Shown here: positions 1 through 44,039 of the stretch, piece by piece
Layout: each line of letters opens with the position of its first letter
How positions within the stretch are numbered: position 1 is the stretch's first letter
NCBI RefSeq assembly: GCF_018599195.1
Contig: NZ_JAHFVK010000001.1
Location: forward strand, 1,302,001-1,366,000
Reading direction: 5' to 3'
DNA from: Croceibacterium selenioxidans
GTDB taxonomy: Bacteria; Pseudomonadota; Alphaproteobacteria; Sphingomonadales; Sphingomonadaceae
DNA length: 64,000 nucleotides
Notes under the pieces: model-generated
Seen by the model: only the letters and a program-made list of their open reading frames with translations
The model's database searches: none
What the model was told of the DNA's origin: nothing
Made by a program: the position numbers and the translations under genes

Positions 1-306
1 ATCCCTCTCGATCCGTTCGCGGAAACCGGCAAGGGCGCAGCCCAATAGCGACCGGCCTTATCACACGTCAAAAACGGAACAGCTCCGCGATCGCAGCATT
101 TCCGGCCTGGACGCGTCGCGGCCCTCACCACTCGGCGCGTCCACCATCGCCATCGATCGATCCAGGTTAAGGCATTCGGCGCGGCCGGCGCTACGATTGC
201 CCTGGGCGCGTCGTGCCTGTTGGAGCCAGCATCGCGGCGCGCCCGCCGTTAACCTCAGGCATTCGCAAGTCTTACAAACTCAAAGCCCTCGTGATACGGC
301 GCAGCA
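1..306. other. Left edge, no recognisable gene
   Basis: No reading frame in this stretch gives a protein I recognise. One plus frame stays open from the window edge to about position 306, but its composition is Arg/Ser/Pro-rich and looks like a GC-driven shadow. The element that fills the next 17 kb may extend past the left edge; I cannot see an attachment site here. Confidence 0.4.
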
Positions 307-2177: not shown

Positions 2178-2392
2178 GCGGTTTCTCCATCTAACGTGAG
2201 AGTCGATCCAGCGCGCCGTGGCTTAATCGCTGTCTCACCGGTTTCGACCTTTGGTGCCGAGGCACCGAGGCCCAATAGGCCCGCCCCTTCCGAAAGTGCC
2301 ATCGCCGCAAATGGCAAAGCCAGCTGAGGAACGAGCACGGCGCCGACGGCCATGGCGGTTATCGTCAGAACACGACTTAGGGTCTTACCCAT
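2174..2392 (-). CDS. Small phage membrane protein
   Basis: About 72 residues when started at the ATG at 2392, which has a GGAG sequence about 8 bases upstream. A longer start at 2407 is possible but lies inside the restored reading frame of the DUF6950 gene. Residues 8-35 form a hydrophobic Ala/Val/Leu-rich segment, probably one membrane helix or a signal sequence, followed by a polar tail. It overlaps the next gene by ATGA. Small hydrophobic proteins at this position are common in tail modules of related prophages, but I cannot assign a role. Confidence 0.6.
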   Translation of the reverse strand: MGKTLSRVLTITAMAVGAVLVPQLALPFAAMALSEGAGLLGLGASAPKVETGETAIKPRRAGSTLTLDGETA

Positions 2393-2804
2393 GTTCAGGG
2401 TCTCCATGCTGCAATGACATTGAGATGATCTTTACCGGCGAAATGAAGCCCTTTCGGCCGCTTGATGGCGCAGCGCTCGCCGGTCCAGATCGCACCGGCC
2501 TCCAACGGGCCGAGAGAGAGAGTATCGCGATGTCACCAACTTCAAGCCCATCAATGGGGACTTGAGGCAGCGTCTCGCCGATACCTTCACGCCAGAGCTC
2601 GATCAGTCCGTCAGAGGCGGCTTCCTCGCACTCCACTTCGCCGACGATATGCCGCCACTTGGCCGCGAAGTCCGGGTGGCCCAGCGCCACGCACCAATCC
2701 GCTGCGAGAGTGGAGCAGTTCCACGGCCCCCGGTCCTTTGCCGCGGCCTGAAGGAAGGCCCCCAGCGAGACAGGATCGCAATCCATACGAACCGGGCTCA
2801 GCAT
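2385..2804 (-). CDS. DUF6950 family phage protein, apparently frameshifted
   Basis: The first 100 residues match the DUF6950 family of phage tail-region proteins, with the typical WNCSTLAADWC segment early on. The frame as read ends in an unrelated Arg/Ser/Pro-rich tail. Dropping one GA unit from the (GA)5 run at 2512-2522 restores a family-like C-terminus containing GAIWTGERCAI and KGLHFAGKDHLNVIAAWRP, ending at a stop at 2395, three bases from the next gene's likely ATG at 2392. The start overlaps the tape measure stop as TGATG. It is therefore a slipped or mis-sequenced gene, or a length-variable switch. Confidence 0.75.
   Translation of the reverse strand: MLSPVRMDCDPVSLGAFLQAAAKDRGPWNCSTLAADWCVALGHPDFAAKWRHIVGEVECEEAASDGLIELWREGIGETLPQVPIDGLEVGDIAILSLSARWRPVRSGPASAAPSSGRKGFISPVKIISMSLQHGDPEHG
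2512..2522 (-). repeat. GA dinucleotide run at a frameshift point
   Basis: Eleven bases of alternating G and A inside the DUF6950 gene. Removing one dinucleotide unit joins the family-like N-terminal and C-terminal halves in one frame. Dinucleotide runs of this kind are slippage-prone. Confidence 0.7.
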
Positions 2805-36014: not shown

Positions 36015-38356
36015 GGCAGCACGATCGTCGCGGTTGTTCCGGAGCCCTTTTCCGACTGGAGTTCCAGCCGGCCGCCATGCGCTTCGATCAGCTGTCGGGC
36101 CAGCGGCAGGCCAAGGCCGCCACGCCGGCTTTCCGGCTTGCCGTCCGCGCCCATCCGATAACCATCGAGCGCGCGCGCGAGCTCGCTCGGCTTCATGCCC
36201 GGGCCGTTGTCCGATACCACGATCCGCACACCTTGTTTACGACGGGAAAGAGCGACGAGAATGCGCCCGCCCGTCGGTGCTGCCTTGATTGCGTTGTCGA
36301 GCAAATTGCCGATGGCGCGTTTCAGCTGACGGATATCGGCCATGATCGTCCCTGCCGAGCGGTCACCGCGCAAGTCGAGCGTCAGGCTCTTGTCCTCGAT
36401 GGCATCTTCGCGTTCGCGCACGATCTGGGTCACGAAAGTGAGCAGGTCGGTTTCCTCGGTCGCGATCGGCAGCAGCCCGGCCTCGCTTTGCGTCAGGTCG
36501 AGCACGCTTTCGATCTGGGCACTCAACCGCCCTACAGAGGCGAGGATTGCTGCGACATATTCCTGCCCCTGATCGCTGAGCTGCCCCGCGACGCCGGTCT
36601 GCAAGAGTTCGGCGAACCCACCGATCGAAGTTAGCGGGGTGCGGAACTCGTAGGACATGTTGGCGAGGAACCGCGTCTTTACCGCATCGGCTTCTTCCAG
36701 CGCCGTATTGCGTTCGCGCAGGGCATCCTCGGCTTTCTTGCTGTCGGTGACGTCAAGCACGGTAAGCAACCCGTTGCCATCGGGAAGCGGCACACCTGCA
36801 AACTCCAGGGTGCGTCCGTTCGAGAGTTGCACCCGCCCACCCCGCTGCTTGCGGTCTAGGGTGGCGGCGCGCACGACCTCGCCGATCGCTTCCCTTTGGC
36901 CCGGCCGCGCGAGCCTCGATCCAATACGCTCGAGCAGGGACTCGATCCGCGGATGTTCGTCGAACCATTCCTCCGGAAGCCCCCAGATTTCGGGAAAGCG
37001 GCGGTTCCATAGCTGCATCCGGCCATCCGGCGCGAACACGGCGAGAGATTCGAACAGACTGTCGAATGTCGCGGTTCGCGTACGCAGGAGCGTATCGCGC
37101 CCGGCTGAAAGCGCCAATTGCTCGGAGCGGTCCTCGGCAACCATGAACAGCCCGCCGTCGGGCAAAGGCTGGGCGACAATCCTGAGGTGGGTTCCGTCCG
37201 ATAGCGTCCAGGCATCTTCGCTCGCCTCACCGGCCGTGAACCAGCCCCCAAGCTCACGACGCCAGACCGGGAAGTCGCGCACCTCGGGCAAGCGGCCCGC
37301 CTCACGCGCGGTGTCGAGGAAGCGATCGAACTTCAGCGGATCGAGACGCGCGGCAGGCGGCATCGCGAAGATGCGCTGGAAGGGCTGGTTGGCGAAGGTC
37401 AGCACCCGGTCCGCGTCGAACTGTGCCACGCCCACGGAAAGCTGGTCGATGATCGAACGCTGAGCTTCGCGGAATGCGCGGAATTCGCGAGCCTGCTCTT
37501 CCATCTCCTCGATGTCGATGGCGTAGCCGGCGACGCCTTCCTTACCGAGCGGAAGATCGCTGACCCGCAACGTGCGGCGCTGGGTCCCGACCGTGGCCTG
37601 GACGATGCGCTCCACCGGCAGATCCTTGTCCGCTGCCTGCCGCGCGACTTGGGCCGCGCTGAGCCCATCGACCACCTCGATCAATTCGACCTGATTCTTG
37701 ACGCAGTCCTCGGCGCTCTCGCTCCCGACCGCTTCGACATAAGCACTGTTCACGAGGCGCAGCTTCATGTCCGGACCGCGGAACCACATCGGCGTGGGCG
37801 CCGCCTCTATCAGACCGACAAGCGCGGCGAAGTCAGTCTTGGCCCTTGCGGTTTCGCTGCGCAGGCGTGCCAATTCTCCCTGGCTTTCGGAGAAGTCGAA
37901 CCACCAAAGCAAAGCCGCTCCGTTCGGGGCGATGACGGGATCGGCCAGGTGACCGCGTATCGCCAGGCTCTTGCCCGAACCACGCGGCGTGGCGACCATG
38001 CTGAAGGGCGCCGCGGTCTTTTGCGTCTTGCGGACCGCGTCGCGCAATTGATCGAGGTCATCGGCCTCGAGACCGCCGGCCTCCCCGCCATCGAGTTCGC
38101 TCAGGTATCCCGGCAATTTTGCCAGCCCAAGCCATGCCGCGAGCCGTTCCGGGCCCTCGATCTTGCCGTCCGACCTCACCAACAGCGGAATAGCCGGAGA
38201 ATCGTCTATCATGCGCGTAAGCCGCCGCGCCGTCGACCGGGCCGTGCGGGCGTGCCGGGCGCGGCTTTGCGCCGCCAGCACCAGCCAGACCGCACCAAAA
38301 GTCCATGCCGCCAGAAGGAGGCCCAGCATGACCAGCGCGACAGGAGATAATTCCAT
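36011..38356 (-). CDS. divL: DivL-like PAS sensor kinase with Tyr in the H-box
   Basis: A 781-residue protein: N-terminal membrane helix (about 7-28), several PAS-type sensory repeats between about 50 and 540, a DHp helix pair and a complete HATPase domain (GNLLDNAIKA, DNGPGM, GGLGLPLA). The H-box reads LANMSYEFRTPLTSIGG, so the phosphorylated His is replaced by Tyr569 (codon at 36650-36652), as in Caulobacter DivL. DivL is a pseudokinase-like partner that controls CckA and hence CtrA during the cell cycle. It opens the operon continuing into tsaE. Confidence 0.92.
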   Translation of the reverse strand: MELSPVALVMLGLLLAAWTFGAVWLVLAAQSRARHARTARSTARRLTRMIDDSPAIPLLVRSDGKIEGPERLAAWLGLAKLPGYLSELDGGEAGGLEADDLDQLRDAVRKTQKTAAPFSMVATPRGSGKSLAIRGHLADPVIAPNGAALLWWFDFSESQGELARLRSETARAKTDFAALVGLIEAAPTPMWFRGPDMKLRLVNSAYVEAVGSESAEDCVKNQVELIEVVDGLSAAQVARQAADKDLPVERIVQATVGTQRRTLRVSDLPLGKEGVAGYAIDIEEMEEQAREFRAFREAQRSIIDQLSVGVAQFDADRVLTFANQPFQRIFAMPPAARLDPLKFDRFLDTAREAGRLPEVRDFPVWRRELGGWFTAGEASEDAWTLSDGTHLRIVAQPLPDGGLFMVAEDRSEQLALSAGRDTLLRTRTATFDSLFESLAVFAPDGRMQLWNRRFPEIWGLPEEWFDEHPRIESLLERIGSRLARPGQREAIGEVVRAATLDRKQRGGRVQLSNGRTLEFAGVPLPDGNGLLTVLDVTDSKKAEDALRERNTALEEADAVKTRFLANMSYEFRTPLTSIGGFAELLQTGVAGQLSDQGQEYVAAILASVGRLSAQIESVLDLTQSEAGLLPIATEETDLLTFVTQIVREREDAIEDKSLTLDLRGDRSAGTIMADIRQLKRAIGNLLDNAIKAAPTGGRILVALSRRKQGVRIVVSDNGPGMKPSELARALDGYRMGADGKPESRRGGLGLPLARQLIEAHGGRLELQSEKGSGTTATIVLP

Positions 38357-38548
38357 GACCTGTCAGCTATTAGCGCCGAGGGGGGGATGCAATGCCTGAA
38401 GCCCGCTCCTGCACGACTATTCGGACCGGATGAGCGCGCAATCCTGCCTGAGAGCGAACCTCAAAGGAAGGTGGTGCGCGTGTTGAGGGAGTGACGGAGG
38501 GCCGTTGCGTAATCGCAGCTCCTTCACCCATTCCGCGTGTCCACCCTC

Positions 38549-38573
38549 CCCATCGCTTCGCGACAGGGAGGAT
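38549..38573. repeat. REP-like palindromic repeat, copy A
   Basis: CCCATCGCTTCGCGAC followed by AGGGAGGAT matches the copy at 60585-60609 at 24 of 25 positions. It is palindromic (CCTCCC with GGGAGG, inner TCGC with GCGA) and lies about 20 bases past the ahcY stop, so it may end that transcript. Confidence 0.65.
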
Positions 38574-38592
38574 GGGGTTTCTCGCAGAACCC

Positions 38593-40002
38593 TTAGTAGC
38601 GGTAGTGGTCGGCCTTGAAGGGACCGCTCACTGGCACGCCGATGTAATCGGCCTGGCGCTGGCTCAATTTGGTCAGCTTGGCGCCGAGCTTGTCGAGGTG
38701 CAGAGCGGCGACCTTCTCGTCCAGGTGCTTGGGCAGCACGTAAACGTCGTTCTGGTACTGCTCACCCTTGGTGTAGAGCTCGATCTGCGCCAGCACCTGG
38801 TTGGTGAAGCTGCAGCTCATCACGAAGCTCGGGTGACCGGTGGCGCAGCCGAGGTTCACCAGGCGGCCCTTGGCGAGAATGATGATCTTCTTGCCATCCG
38901 GGAAGGTGACCAGGTCGGTGCCCGGCTTCACTTCCGCCCAGTCGTAGTTGTCGAGGGCGGCGATCTGGATCTCGCTGTCGAAGTGGCCGATGTTGCAGAC
39001 AATCGACATCGGCTTCATCGCCTTCATGTGCTCGGCGGTGATGACGTCTTCGTTGCCAGTCGCGGTGACGAAGATGTCGCAGCGCTTCACCGCTTCTTCC
39101 ATCGTCACGACTTCATAGCCTTCCATCGCGGCCTGGAGAGCGCAGATCGGATCGATCTCAGTCACCATGACGCGAGCGCCGCCATTGCGGAGACTGTCGG
39201 CAGAACCCTTTCCGACGTCACCGAAACCGGCGACGCAGGCGACCTTGCCGGCCAGCATCACGTCGGTCGCCCGACGGATCGCGTCCACCAGCGATTCCTT
39301 GCAACCGTAGAGGTTGTCGAACTTCGACTTGGTGACACTGTCGTTCACGTTGATCGCCGGAAACGGCAGCTTGCCCTGCTTGGCCAGGCTGTAGAGACGA
39401 TGAACCCCAGTGGTTGTTTCCTCGGACACGCCGTGGATCGCCTGGACCGTCTTGGTCAGGTAGCCCGGCTTGGCCTTGAGGAAGGCCTTGAGCGCGCGGA
39501 CGAACTCGATTTCTTCGGCGTTGGAAGGTTCGAACAGGTCCTCACCGGCTTCGACACGCGCGCCCCACAGCGCGAACATCGTGGCGTCGCCGCCGTCGTC
39601 GAGGATGATGTTGCAAGTGGTATCGTCACCCCATTCGAAGATCTTGCCGACGTAGTCCCAGTATTCGGCCAGGCTCTCGCCCTTGATCGCGAACACGGGA
39701 ATGCCCCGCGCGGCGATGGCGGCGGCGGCGTGGTCCTGGGTGGAGAAGATGTTGCAAGTGGCCCAGCGTACTTCCGCCCCGAGAGCAACGAGCGTCTCGA
39801 TCAGAACGGCGGTCTGGATCGTCATGTGCAGCGAGCCAGTGATGCGCGCGCCCTTGAGGGGCTGCGATGGGCCGTATTCCTCGCGCAGTGCCATCAGGCC
39901 CGGCATCTCGGTTTCGGCAATGGCAATCTCGGCCCGGCCGTAGTCGGCCTGCGAGATGTCCCGGACGATATAGTCTTTTTCTACGACGGCAGCGGTAGCC
40001 AC
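38593..40002 (-). CDS. ahcY: Adenosylhomocysteinase
   Basis: 469 residues from a GTG at 40002 with AGGAG about 9 bases upstream; the open frame to 40164 upstream is not protein-like. It splits S-adenosylhomocysteine to adenosine and homocysteine. Substrate-region [10 protein letters not shown], the NAD-binding [11 protein letters not shown] and the C-terminal KADHYRY are all present. The 150-base leader separates it from the divergent ECF41 unit. Confidence 0.97.
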
Positions 40003-40158
40003 GGTGCAACACTCCTGTGCTTTGGGGTGAAGGCGCAGCCGGGGCTCCATGCCGACGCCGGTATCGCGAACGCACATAGTCCGTCGCGCCGCGCATGGCA
40101 AACACGCCTTGGTCGATCCACCCGCTGAACGGGTAGAACGAAGAATTTTCGCCCGCGA
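40003..40158 (-). other. ahcY leader region
   Basis: The leader contains ACCCG (40120-40124) pairing with CGGGT (40130-40134) around a 5-base loop, and GC-rich segments. I looked for SAM-II and SAH riboswitch cores and do not see them, so I only note a possible structured leader. Confidence 0.3.
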
Positions 40159-40185
40159 TGTCACATCCGCGTTGGCTGCCTCGTC
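40159..40185 (+). promoter_or_regulatory. ECF41-type promoter
   Basis: TGTCACA at 40159-40165, a 16-base spacer, then CGTC at 40182-40185. This is the published -35/-10 pair for ECF41 sigma factors. It lies 24 to 40 bases upstream of the possible starts of the first gene in an operon that encodes an ECF41 factor, so it is probably autoregulated. Confidence 0.8.
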
Positions 40186-40208
40186 AAGGCATCGTCCCTC
40201 AAAATGAA

Positions 40209-40679
40209 ATGGATGTGATCATCATGACGATGCGCCTCAATCCCTACACCGCCGCGCCGGAACTCATAAAAGCCTGGCTCGATCATTCGAATCAGGTTGC
40301 CGAGAGCGGTCTCGAGAAGCCCTTGGTCGAGCTGGTAAAAATTCGGGCCTCGCAGATCAACGGCTGCGCCAATTGCCTCAATATGCATACGTTTGAAGCG
40401 CGTCAGGCTGGGGAGACCGAACAGCGGATCGCTCTGCTAAACGCATGGGAGGAAGCGCCCTGCTACAGTGACCGCGAACGCGCCGCGCTGGCCTGGACCG
40501 ATCACCTCACACTGGTTGCCACCAAGCGCGCCCCCGCCCCCGTCTATGCCCGACTGGACGAGCTGTTCAGCAAGGAAGAACAAGTGAAACTCACGCTAAT
40601 GATCAACGTGATCAACGGCTGGAACCGCCTCGCGGTTGCTTTCGAATTGTTCGATCCGGGGTTAGGCTGGAAGGCATGA
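40209..40679 (+). CDS. Carboxymuconolactone decarboxylase/AhpD-like protein
   Basis: 156 residues if started at 40209 (ATG also at 40224 and 40230); any start must lie downstream of the promoter at 40185, which excludes the longer frame from 40158. It carries the redox CxxC in [12 protein letters not shown] (about residues 51-62) of the AhpD/CMD family. Such proteins are the most common partners of ECF41 sigma factors. The stop overlaps the sigma gene as ATGA. Likely a peroxidase-like or oxidative-stress enzyme. Confidence 0.9.
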
Positions 40680-41530
40680 ACGAGACGGTCGCTCAGTTCG
40701 AAGCATTAAGGCCGCGGCTGCTCCGCGTTGCCTACCGCATGCTCGGGTCGATGGGCGATGCCGAAGACGTGGTGCAGGACGCGTGGCTACGCTGGCAGGC
40801 GGCAGATCGTGCCGTCGTGCGCACGCCAGAGGCGTACCTGCGCCGCGTGGTCACGCGGCTGTGTCTAGATCAGCTCAAATCGGCGCGGGCGCGGCGGGAG
40901 GACTACGTTGGAACCTGGCTGCCCGATCCGGTGGTGGAAGCGGAGGAAGAGGACGACGTGACACTTCCGCTCATGCTCGCCCTCGAACGGCTCTCCCCGC
41001 TGGAACGCGCGGCCTTCCTGCTTCACGATGTCTTCGGCGAGAGCTTCGAGCAGATCGCAGAGACGCTTGGACGTGATCCCGCCGCCTGCCGCCAACTCGC
41101 CCGCCGGGCCCGCGAGCATGTGAGAACGGAAAAGCCGCGCTTTCCTGTCGACCACGCCCACGGGATGGAAATGGCCGAGGCCTTCTTTGCCGCCTCGCGC
41201 GAAGGCGACACCGCGCGGCTCGGGACGATGCTGGCCAGCGACGTCGGTTTCTATTCGGACGGTGGCGGCAAGCGGCCAGCCGTGGCCAGAGTGATGCGAG
41301 GAGCCGATGAGGTGGCTCGGACTTACGCCGCACTCGCCCGGCTGACGCGCGGGCACAGGGGATCACTGATCCGCTATGCGTATGTGAACGGTCTTCCCGG
41401 ATACATAACGCGCGAGGCGGACGGCGTGCTGCAGACCACCGCGCTCGTGATCGAAGAAGGCAAGGTCCGGGCAATCTACGTCATGCGCAACCCCGACAAG
41501 CTCCAGCATCTGGAAGGTGCACTTCATTAG
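40676..41530 (+). CDS. sigJ: ECF41-family RNA polymerase sigma factor (SigJ-like)
   Basis: A 284-residue sigma factor: region 2 (LRVAYRMLGSMGDAEDVVQD), region 4 (LERLSPLERAAFLLHDVFGE) and a C-terminal SnoaL-like domain of about 115 residues. The ECF41 hallmarks WLPDP, DGGGK and NPDKL are all present. In this group the C-terminal domain replaces an anti-sigma factor and controls activity. Co-transcribed with the CMD-like gene from the matching promoter at 40159. Confidence 0.93.
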   Translation: MNETVAQFEALRPRLLRVAYRMLGSMGDAEDVVQDAWLRWQAADRAVVRTPEAYLRRVVTRLCLDQLKSARARREDYVGTWLPDPVVEAEEEDDVTLPLMLALERLSPLERAAFLLHDVFGESFEQIAETLGRDPAACRQLARRAREHVRTEKPRFPVDHAHGMEMAEAFFAASREGDTARLGTMLASDVGFYSDGGGKRPAVARVMRGADEVARTYAALARLTRGHRGSLIRYAYVNGLPGYITREADGVLQTTALVIEEGKVRAIYVMRNPDKLQHLEGALH

Positions 41531-41608
41531 GCGCTAATTCGTTCGCGGTTGCGCCCCGGGCGGCAGAACCTATGTACGCAGGCGCACTCACACAGGAGAA
41601 CGGTTCAG

Positions 41609-42088
41609 ATGACAATTTCCAAGGGCGACAAGCTGCCTGACGTGACACTGGTCAAGGCGACCGAGAACGGGCCGGAGAAGGTCCAGAGCGGCGAGTACTT
41701 CGCCGGCAAGAAGGTCGCCCTGTTCTCTGTGCCGGGCGCGTTCACACCGACTTGTTCGGTCAAGCACCTTCCCGGCTTCGTCGAGAAGGCCGCCGAACTG
41801 AAGGCCAAGGGCGTCGACGAGATCGTCGGCACCGCGGTGAACGATGCCTTCGTGCTCGGTGCATGGAACAAGGCCTCCGGTTCGTCGGACATCACCATGC
41901 TGGCGGACGGCAACGGCGATTTTGCCGAAGCGCTGGGCCTGACGATGGACGGCAGCGGCTTCGGCATGGGCAAGCGTAGCCAGCGCTATTCGATGATCGT
42001 CAACGATGGTGTGGTCGAAGAGCTGAACGTTGAAGCTCCGGGCGACTTCAAAGTCAGCAGCGCCGAGCACATGCTCGGACAGCTCTAA
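41609..42088 (+). CDS. Peroxiredoxin (Prx5-like)
   Basis: 159 residues from the ATG at 41609, with AGGAGA about 11 bases upstream. It reduces hydroperoxides; the peroxidatic Cys sits in GAFTPTCSVKHLPGF (about residue 49), and the overall pattern matches the Prx5 branch using glutathione or glutaredoxin. It follows the ECF41 unit by 78 bases, but I see no ECF41-type promoter in front of it. Confidence 0.93.
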   Translation: MTISKGDKLPDVTLVKATENGPEKVQSGEYFAGKKVALFSVPGAFTPTCSVKHLPGFVEKAAELKAKGVDEIVGTAVNDAFVLGAWNKASGSSDITMLADGNGDFAEALGLTMDGSGFGMGKRSQRYSMIVNDGVVEELNVEAPGDFKVSSAEHMLGQL

Positions 42089-42096
42089 GTCAATGC

Positions 42097-42120
42097 AGGG
42101 GCGCTCTGCGGAGCGCCCCT
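42097..42120. terminator. Strong hairpin between the peroxiredoxin and murA
   Basis: AGGGGCGCTC and GAGCGCCCCT pair over 10 bases around a TGCG loop, 8 bases after the peroxiredoxin stop and 10 before the convergent murA stop. It can end both transcripts. Confidence 0.85.
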
Positions 42121-42130
42121 CACCTTTCGT

Positions 42131-43429
42131 TCAGGCGTTTTGCACCCACTGCACGTCCGCGCCGAGCGACACGAAGTTGTCGATGAACCCAGGGTGCGCA
42201 CGGCGGATCGGGTCTGCATCGAGAATGGTCGACTCACCCTTGATCGAAGATGCGACCATCAGCAGCGCGATAGCGACGCGGATGATGTACGGGCTCGTAA
42301 CCGTCGCCGGCGCCAATTCATCTCCGCCGAAGGTGATCAGGCGATGTGGGTCGCACAGGAGCGTATGGGCGCCGAACAGCGAGAGTTCGGTGTGCCAGGT
42401 GAGCCCGCCCTCGTAGACCTTGTTCCAGAACATCACCGAACCTTGCGCCTTTACGCCAAGCGCAATGAAGATCGGCAAAAGGTCGGCCGGAATGTAGGGC
42501 CACGGCGCCGCCTCGACCTTCGTGATGAGGTGCGAGGTGAAGTTCTCCTCGACTACCAGCCGTTTCGGCGCCGCCAGTCGCGACCAGCCTCCTTCGTGCT
42601 TCACCTCAGCTCCGAACTTGCCGAACGTGCGGTCGATCAGGTCGAAGTGTTCCGGGTGATTGTTGCGCACCTGGATGTCACCACCGGTTACCGCCGCCAG
42701 TGCCAGGAACGTGGCGATCTCGTGAAAATCGTCGATGAAGGTGTAGTCAGCCCCGCCGAGCTTCGTCCCGCCCTCGACCGAAACCATCGACGTTCCCTTG
42801 CCGATGATCTTCGCGCCTAAGAGCTCGAGGAAGGTGCACATTTCCTGCACGTGAGGCTCGCAAGCAGCGTTGACGATCTGCGAGGTCCCCTGAACGGTAA
42901 GGGCGCTGAGGATGAAGTTCTCGGTCGTGGTTACGGAAGCATACTCGAGCCACATACGCGCGGCCTGTCCCTTGCCGGATGCGCGGAACACGATGTCGTG
43001 CCCGCTCTGGCTGACTTCGGCTCCGAACGCACGAAACACGGCGACGTGAGGATCGATCTCGCGCGCACCGAGGGTGCAGCCCTTGACCTCGTGCTCGAGG
43101 CGGGCCTCGCCCAGCCGGACGATCAGGCCAGGGATCATCATGATCGAGGCGCGCATGGCTTGCGGCAAGCGGGCATCCGTCCCCTTTGCCACCGTCGAGT
43201 GGTCGATCTCGAGGATCTTGACTGCCTTGTCCCAATTCACCTTGGAACCGAGCGTGCCAAAGAACTCCACGATCCGGGAAACGTCGGTGATCTCGGGAAC
43301 ATTGCGCAAGGTGATCGGCGCATCAGTGAGCAAGGTGGCGCACAATACCGGAAGCACGGCGTTCTTATTGGCCGACGGTTCGATACGGCCAGTAAGGGGC
43401 TTGCCGCCCCGCACGAGTAGAGCGGTCAA
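42131..43429 (-). CDS. murA: UDP-N-acetylglucosamine 1-carboxyvinyltransferase (MurA family)
   Basis: 432 residues with an apparent TTG start 1 base after the folE stop (a GTG five codons on is an alternative). It transfers enolpyruvate to UDP-GlcNAc, the first step of peptidoglycan synthesis. The Lys-Asn pair in SANKNAVLPVL, the active Cys in KGCTLGAREID, the Asp in PADLLPIF and a C-terminal Arg (YIIRVAIAL) are retained, but overall spacing and wording differ from typical MurA, so it may be the second, divergent paralogue. Confidence 0.88.
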   Translation of the reverse strand: MTALLVRGGKPLTGRIEPSANKNAVLPVLCATLLTDAPITLRNVPEITDVSRIVEFFGTLGSKVNWDKAVKILEIDHSTVAKGTDARLPQAMRASIMMIPGLIVRLGEARLEHEVKGCTLGAREIDPHVAVFRAFGAEVSQSGHDIVFRASGKGQAARMWLEYASVTTTENFILSALTVQGTSQIVNAACEPHVQEMCTFLELLGAKIIGKGTSMVSVEGGTKLGGADYTFIDDFHEIATFLALAAVTGGDIQVRNNHPEHFDLIDRTFGKFGAEVKHEGGWSRLAAPKRLVVEENFTSHLITKVEAAPWPYIPADLLPIFIALGVKAQGSVMFWNKVYEGGLTWHTELSLFGAHTLLCDPHRLITFGGDELAPATVTSPYIIRVAIALLMVASSIKGESTILDADPIRRAHPGFIDNFVSLGADVQWVQNA

Positions 43430-43430
43430 A

Positions 43431-44039
43431 TCAGTATCCCATCAGCTTGAGGACTTCCTGGCGACTCTTGTCGTCGCGGCGGAAGATTCCCATCACCCGG
43501 CTTGTTACCATGTTCACCCCCGGTGTCCGCACCCCACGCGCGGTCATGCACGCATGGCTCGCCTCGATCACCACGGCCACGCCCTTGGGCTGCAGCTCAT
43601 CCCAGATGCACTGCGCGACTTCGGCCGTCAGGCGTTCCTGGATTTGCAGGCGGCGCGCATAGGCGTGCAGCACCCGAGCCAGCTTCGAGATACCCACGAC
43701 CCGGTCCGTAGGCAGGTAGGCGATGGCCGCCTTGCCTATGATCGGAGCCATATGATGCTCGCAATGGCTCTGGAACGGTATGTCCTTGAGCAGCACGATT
43801 TCATCGTACCCTCCGACTTCCTCGAACATGCGGGAAAGGTGGCTGGCCGGGTCTTCGGTGTAACCCTGGCAATATTCCTTCCACGCGCGCGCCACGCGCT
43901 TCGGCGTGTCGAGAAGGCCTTCGCGCTCGGGATCGTCCCCAGCCCAGCGAATCAGGGTGCGGACGGCTTCCTGCACGTCCTCCGGTACTGGCGGCTTGCC
44001 ACGCGGATCGTCCTCATCGGGACCGTCCAAACTGCTCAT
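43431..44039 (-). CDS. folE: GTP cyclohydrolase I
   Basis: A 202-residue enzyme that makes dihydroneopterin triphosphate, the entry to folate synthesis. The zinc ligands and active site are visible in SHCEHHMAPIIGKAAIAY and EASHACMTARGV. The ATG overlaps the PLD stop as ATGA. Confidence 0.97.
   Translation of the reverse strand: MSSLDGPDEDDPRGKPPVPEDVQEAVRTLIRWAGDDPEREGLLDTPKRVARAWKEYCQGYTEDPASHLSRMFEEVGGYDEIVLLKDIPFQSHCEHHMAPIIGKAAIAYLPTDRVVGISKLARVLHAYARRLQIQERLTAEVAQCIWDELQPKGVAVVIEASHACMTARGVRTPGVNMVTSRVMGIFRRDDKSRQEVLKLMGY

Follow-up and report, generated by a model that had tools for sequence, protein, structure and literature searches.

A question raised by this locus is whether a short sequence motif, a CMD/AhpD-type gene and an overlapping sigma-factor gene make up one self-activating unit and, if so, does the sigma factor serve that unit alone or other genes as well? 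The first-pass annotation of the window, i.e. the whole 64-kb stretch of DNA under analysis, had proposed a complete ECF41 module with a readable promoter, and promoter, CMD gene and sigma factor are all confirmed (Table 1). We place at roughly 93% the probability that these parts constitute a complete ECF41 operon that would be autoactivated by its own sigma factor.

Table 1. The ECF41 operon and its neighbours. Positions are those of the window; residues are those of the sigma factor.
Feature	Location	Strand	Basis
ahcY, adenosylhomocysteinase	38593-40002	-	start assumed at GTG 40002; TIGR00936 582.2 bits (cut-off 497.6)
ECF41 promoter, -35 element TGTCACA	40159-40165	+	TGTCACA in 91/96 and TGTCACG in 5/96 non-identical promoter sequences
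ECF41 promoter, -10 element CGTC	40182-40185	+	16 bp from -35 element; CGTC in 96/96 non-identical sequences
Expected transcription start region	40191-40194	+	spacing from -10 element
CMD/AhpD-type protein, 151 aa, CxxCxxxH (CANCLNMH)	40224-40679	+	Pfam CMD PF02627; NCBIfam ahpD_dom
ECF41 sigma factor, 284 aa	40676-41530	+	Sigma70_r2 and r4_2; NCBIfam SigJ; PDB 5xe7; AlphaFold2 model
sigma2	residues about 8-71		Sigma70_r2 57.7 bits, above cut-off
sigma2-sigma4 linker with WLPDP	residues 81-85		
sigma4	residues about 99-148		r4_2 54.4 bits, above cut-off
Predicted NTF2/SnoaL-fold C-terminal domain	residues about 157-283		AlphaFold2 model and structure comparison
DGGGK	residues 195-199		
NPDKL	residues 272-276		
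Peroxiredoxin (Redoxin family)	41609-42088	+	Pfam Redoxin E 2e-34

The sigma factor is recognized over most of its length. It scores 393.7 bits with the NCBIfam SigJ model NF007214 (cut-off 271) and matches the sequence of M. tuberculosis SigJ (PDB 5xe7) over residues 4-276 with an E value of 1.3e-53. The WLPDP, DGGGK and NPDKL motifs that had been read from the letters are present and, in the forms WLP[DE]P, DGGG[KR] and NP[DE]KL, recur in 110 of 110 loci, this one included; DGGGK and NPDKL are presumably the motifs published for the ECF41 extension. Members of ECF41 are expected to have a SnoaL-like C-terminal extension of about 100 residues and a linked CMD, oxidoreductase or epimerase gene. 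A WLPEP-type linker motif has been named for ECF41, and the extension is described as having "three conserved motifs" (PMC3426412). For the C-terminal domain, the Pfam SnoaL_2 score lies below its cut-off (19.6 versus 27 bits), and the assignment of the fold therefore rests on the AlphaFold2 model and the SigJ match. This model, built from an alignment of 39 sequences, has a mean pLDDT of 77.5 and a pTM of 0.58, with residues 71-81 and 197-201 below 50. Its best structure matches among the 50 listed are both SnoaL-fused sigma factors, SigG1 (7qh5, Z 16.4) and SigJ (5xe7, Z 16.2); both cover almost the entire protein, with rmsd values of 6.3 and 6.5 Å, respectively, which perhaps reflect a different placement of the domains. 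The C-terminal domain taken separately matches many folds of the NTF2/ketosteroid-isomerase type (Z 11.5-13 among the matches listed). This is the one ECF41 gene of its genome, the sole other match being partial, at 31%, and a linked anti-sigma gene is absent among the three direct neighbours of the module or its sigma gene, namely the CMD gene, ahcY and the peroxiredoxin gene. Five of the features by which ECF41 membership is judged (sigma2 and sigma4, linker motif, SnoaL-like extension, linked CMD gene and promoter) are found here.

By its domain matches, the upstream gene product belongs to the CMD family and has an AhpD core domain, outside AhpD proper. It scores 80.3 bits with the Pfam CMD model (E 1.1e-22, cut-off 23) and matches NCBIfam ahpD_dom at E 9.1e-17; AhpD proper (TIGR00777) was rejected at 26 bits versus a cut-off of 191.95. 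Where does this gene begin? Its longest open reading frame opens at 40158, on the A one base 5' of the -35 element, and it cannot begin there on a transcript from that promoter. The first-pass annotation had argued that the promoter pushes the start of the CMD gene downstream of 40185, and the aligned starts of relatives bear this out in favouring ATG 40224: the corresponding place holds ATG in 105 of 109 loci and GTG in two, with ATG one codon earlier in the remaining two. Two further in-frame codons, ATG 40209 and GTG 40215, are without counterpart between promoter and start in three same-genus loci (L010, L011 and L012). A weak, Shine-Dalgarno-like GGA lies at 40211-40213 and is weaker than the corresponding element of most relatives. 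We note separately that automatic annotation may put the start of this gene at 40158.

The CMD and sigma genes are closely coupled. As the earlier reading had it, they overlap in the window, sharing the four bases ATGA; CMD lies upstream of the sigma gene in 109 of 110 loci, own included, and the two genes overlap or touch in 29 of 109, as judged from the aligned first residue of the sigma factor. Such tight coupling could mean that the CMD protein is a regulator, an anti-sigma-like partner, instead of an output of the system. Against this idea, co-expression of the CMD protein was reported to be without effect on Ecf41Bli-dependent promoter activity in B. subtilis (PMC3426412); at one locus (L077) CMD was not found upstream, and yet a perfect TGTCACA-N16-CGTC stands shortly before the sigma gene; and all 109 CMD proteins retain CxxCxxxH (83 counted by a pattern with preceding NG, and 26, which differ at G, read by eye), as expected of an enzyme. 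We consider a regulatory CMD protein quite improbable, and continue with the CMD protein as an enzyme produced under the control of the sigma factor.

The promoter calls for more caution if its letters are taken by themselves. The stretch TGTCACATCCGCGTTGGCTGCCTCGTC spans 40159-40185 exactly as first read, with TGTCACA, a 16-bp spacer and CGTC directly before the CMD gene, and it is flanked by the conserved A at 40158 before the -35 element and by T at 40181 and A at 40186 on either side of the -10 element. From the usual distance between an ECF -10 element and the point of initiation, transcription would be expected to begin 6-9 bases past CGTC. With spacers of 14-18 bp, TGTCACA-CGTC matches the window once; when the window was shuffled 100 times, the mean was 0.12 matches, and 10 of the shuffled sequences had at least one. 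Across the 3.44-Mb genome, the same pattern returns 5 rows versus 5 for its reversed form, and hence the motif alone is not above the reversed control genome-wide. At a spacer of 16 the window site is the only row in the genome, and one other row, at C2:1277197 with a spacer of 17, falls within 16±1. Could the match then be due to chance, or be unused, with the operon read from another promoter? The shuffles and the equal reversed counts speak for this possibility. On the other side, a sigma-70 promoter scan of 39900-42250 returned no site, and the motif is identical with the mapped promoters of further ECF41 systems (PMC3426412, PMC6180224); in particular, Wecke et al. (2012, PMC3426412) report a mapped, sigma-dependent promoter in B. 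licheniformis and R. sphaeroides, with a G start and a leader of 22 or 23 nt in the two species. What decides the matter is position and conservation, which make the site credible where the motif alone does not: all 109 CMD-linked loci, that of the window among them, have the promoter at 10/11 matches or better, and its -10 element lies 28-38 bp upstream of where the CMD starts align (38 bp in the window), with much of the spacer variable. On these comparative grounds we rule out a chance motif, and the alternative of a chance or unused site is the least probable that we weighed. The operon is most probably read from the ECF41 promoter, and we infer its autoregulation from this site together with published relatives. 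A search for Rfam matches in 38000-43500 gave none up to E 0.1.

How much weight can the comparison bear? ECF41 genes were found at 67 places in 62 of 298 genomes of the family (E<=1e-30), and the 110 loci comprise the best 30 of these 67 places, own included, plus 80 selected from the 289 places confirmed in named genomes; they are nearest relatives, unevenly sampled and not independent of one another, the two sets overlap, and 11 upstream regions are exact repeats. Within this sample, 104 of the 109 CMD-linked promoters match at 11/11 and 5 at 10/11 (TGTCACG). Read backwards, these 109 upstream regions reach at most 9/11, as does their opposite strand, and of 545 shuffles 7 reach 10/11 and 1 reaches 11/11. 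Among the 96 non-identical promoter sequences, the spacer is 16 in 72 and 17 in 24, and conservation reaches beyond the core elements: A precedes TGTCACA in 92, T precedes CGTC in 94, A or T follows CGTC in all 96, G is the third base after CGTC in 90, and C stands six bases before CGTC in 86. The S. meliloti promoter has all these conserved flanking bases. The closest sigma factors are those of two same-genus genomes, G147 (90%) and G275 (85%), followed by an Altererythrobacter MAG (L039, 77%), whose sigma protein equals that of the same-genus genome G199, and by Sphingomonas at up to 76%; G147, G275, the MAG and the Sphingomonas relatives carry the same promoter and CMD gene as the window. 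A tree of the sigma factors, which omits 9 of 110 rows whose matched stretch crosses a stop and in which 30 of 89 inner branches have below 80% support, places the window within a larger, sphingomonad-dominated branch.

The association between motif and sigma factor is also visible at the level of whole genomes. A strict form of the motif, ATGTCACA-N15/16-TCGTCA, occurs at 49 places in 43 of the 298 family genomes, and its reversed pattern at none. It is present in 39 of 62 ECF41 carriers versus 4 of 236 other genomes (odds ratio 98 by Fisher test, with kinship ignored). Several of the 23 carriers in which the strict motif is absent are explained by variants at the promoter of the operon: G280 has TGTCACG, in G160, G209 and G282 the base after CGTC is T, and in G224 CGTC lacks its preceding T. 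G042 belongs to the 39 through a strict match at a distant CMD gene, its operon promoter being likewise a variant. In the non-carriers G127, G278 and G003, the site overlaps long open reading frames that appear unrelated by eye. A separate observation concerns G245, in which a perfect ECF41-type promoter precedes a broken CMD gene (L134, about 2368-2580, minus strand); the genome has no ECF41 match at E<=1e-30, and the site looks like a decayed module.

If the sigma factor activates its own operon, does its reach end there? Divergent from the module and outside it lies ahcY on the left. To the right and in the same orientation as the sigma gene, the peroxiredoxin gene begins 78 bp past the sigma stop, and a scan listed no terminator-like site between the two; since both CMD and peroxiredoxin could plausibly act on peroxides, the sigma factor could control more than its own operon, including peroxiredoxin by read-through, as part of a wider oxidative-stress regulon. 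The same-genus genomes weigh against such a regulon. The module is present in four of six (own, G147, G275 and G199) and absent from G079 and G240, the latter 86% complete, and in these two cassette-free genomes ahcY and peroxiredoxin are direct neighbours. The gap between them is 173 bp in G240, where the 58 bp beside ahcY align with the left flank in the window at 91%; it is 779 bp in G079, where the likeness of the flank is weaker. Upstream of peroxiredoxin, the window has a block GGTTGC ... CCTATGTACGCA, and a cassette-free same-genus genome has CGGTTGC ... GCCTATGTACGCA; the portion GGTTGC ... CTATGTACGCA is identical in the window, G147, G275 and G240 and partly kept in G079. Peroxiredoxin thus probably has its own promoter, to judge from this conserved block, and, as it keeps its own upstream block, it is probably not an ECF41 target. 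Further points against the wider regulon are that the window has no second match to the ECF41 pattern, that in four more distant loci retaining all three genes (L055, L061, L063 and L071) a gap of 0.7-1.9 kb separates the end of the sigma match from the peroxiredoxin start, and that Wecke et al. reportedly found no reproducible phenotype, oxidative stress included, in two species (PMC3426412). A wider regulon of this kind is unlikely, and an operon ending with the sigma gene is the reading that we retain. Two observations by eye may be added on peroxiredoxin: its upstream block resembles a housekeeping promoter, with none reported by the sigma-70 scan, and a G+C-rich inverted repeat at 42098-42120, after its stop, is absent from the terminator scan listing and may end the transcript.

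These comparisons point to one fixed site between ahcY and peroxiredoxin that is either occupied by a CMD-ECF41 cassette or empty. Among the 110 loci, many of which are short, ahcY was seen in at least 12 and peroxiredoxin in at least 10. Because all loci bearing either gene fall in one 35-row, sphingomonad-dominated branch of the sigma tree, loss of the cassette from G079 and G240 appears no less likely than its recent gain.

Elsewhere in its own genome, candidate targets of the sigma factor are few. The pattern TGTCACN-N14..16-TCGTC occurs at four places versus three for the reversed pattern, and one of the four is the window site. The regions around C2:570587 and C2:624761 (L119 and L120) were screened for the four window proteins and gave no match. 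C2:1277197 was rejected as a target, as it lies inside a 776-aa open reading frame that is CheA-like by eye. A protein search (E<=1e-40) found the genome to lack the second class of CMD paralogue described below. The CMD-ECF41 operon is probably the main or only target in this genome. The genome does hold another CMD paralogue (L009, C2:197711-198136), which is 46% identical and follows a gene of NAD(P)-binding type by eye; genome-wide pattern scans gave no exact ECF41 motif near it. In the published account, ECF41 factors generally control one gene or operon, the CMD-type and sigma genes being the only conserved candidates (PMC3426412). An ECF41 factor of A. brasilense controls motility and lateral flagella, according to a title cited in PMC8999054, and a single target is therefore no general rule.

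Other genomes of the family may provide an exception of a different sort. We read 12 strict-motif places in 11 stretches of DNA; 7 of the 12 (in G253, G144, G293, G042 and G017, and two in G125) precede a second type of CMD gene, and the rest comprise one ordinary CMD-ECF41 operon in G125, the broken CMD of G245 and three sites inside unrelated-looking open reading frames. Used as a query (E<=1e-40), the second CMD protein returned 12 close relatives (at least 77%) in 10 genomes and 9 distant relatives (52-56%) in 8 genomes. In the close class, 11 of 12 genes carry the motif at 10-11/11, always with a spacer of 16, the exception being in G057, and the motif lies 44-57 bp upstream of the position that corresponds to the first residue of the query; 7 of these 12 relatives had originally been found through the motif, which makes the count partly circular. 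Among the five picked without regard to the motif (two in G011 and one each in G155, G057 and G266), four carry it. In the distant class, the motif score is at most 9/11 in all 9. The two classes differ in the sigma factor as well, with ECF41 present in 10 of 10 close-class genomes versus 3 of 8 distant-class genomes. In six genomes the motif-bearing CMD gene stands away from any ECF41 gene found (L127, L128, L129, L130, L141 and L156). The distance is 2.7 Mb along the contig in G144, 282 kb in G155 and 45 kb in G293; in G042, G253 and one of the two cases in G011, the CMD gene is on another contig, and as these are draft genomes the distance is unproven. Screens of 3.5-kb stretches around the second CMD gene in G042, G144, G253 and G293 gave no ECF41 match.

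These data suggest that in these bacteria ECF41 has a second target remote from the sigma gene. We would extend this, tentatively and at a little less than even odds, to the proposal that in several genomes of the family ECF41 also drives a distant second CMD paralogue, so that it would command a few conserved enzymes of the redox type; the window module, as a cassette present or absent between ahcY and peroxiredoxin, would be the one-target form.

How might such a sigma factor be switched on? By analogy with published ECF41 systems, the C-terminal domain would keep the sigma factor inactive by way of the linker; once this domain responds to a ligand or redox cue, the sigma factor would be free to work with RNA polymerase and would transcribe its own CMD-sigma operon, yielding positive feedback along with the CMD enzyme as output. 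A separate anti-sigma factor would not be expected. Published work on related proteins informs this scheme. A 2022 review describes inhibition by the C-terminal domain via contact with the linker (PMC8999054). Removal of the whole extension is reported to abolish activity in B. licheniformis and R. sphaeroides, and shortening the protein only partly, to a length of 204 or 206 residues, to raise it about 20- and 120-fold (PMC3426412); as partial and whole truncations act oppositely, it is the cut site that decides the outcome of a C-terminal deletion. No signal for ECF41 is named in the portions of PMC3426412, PMC6180224 and PMC8999054 used here.

What, then, does this locus contribute? First, the relatives provide a fuller description of the ECF41 promoter: A-TGTCACA, a spacer of 16 or 17, and T-CGTC followed by A or T with G at the third base. 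Second, the unlinked, promoter-bearing CMD paralogues, if they are real targets, offer a route to the signal and output of ECF41, since the possible substrate is easier to delimit when one sigma factor governs two enzymes. Third, a cassette that is present in some members of one genus and absent from others allows for natural with/without comparisons.

In closing, the window operon agrees with published ECF41 systems in its promoter, CMD partner, gene overlap and sigma motifs, as the first-pass annotation had maintained, and it is an added member of a type already described. Ecf41Rsp of R. sphaeroides (RSP_0607), with the CMD gene RSP_0606, shares with it overlapping genes, a TGTCACA -35 element, a CGTC -10 element and a long C-terminal extension, and is reported to have a single target operon (PMC3426412); it comes from another alphaproteobacterium, in which activity was demonstrated, whereas for the window we infer it. 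In S. meliloti, RpoE9 likewise has its CMD gene, SMb20029, upstream; its promoter, ATGTCACA...GCTGTCTCGTCATGG, has an identified start, and CMD is the single target found (PMC6180224). In S. meliloti the bases that follow CGTC are ATGG, whereas those in the window are AAGG. Finally, SigJ of M. tuberculosis (5xe7) has the same arrangement of sigma2 and sigma4 with a fused SnoaL domain, matches the window sigma factor over nearly the full length in both sequence and model, and is 40% identical to it in the structure alignment.
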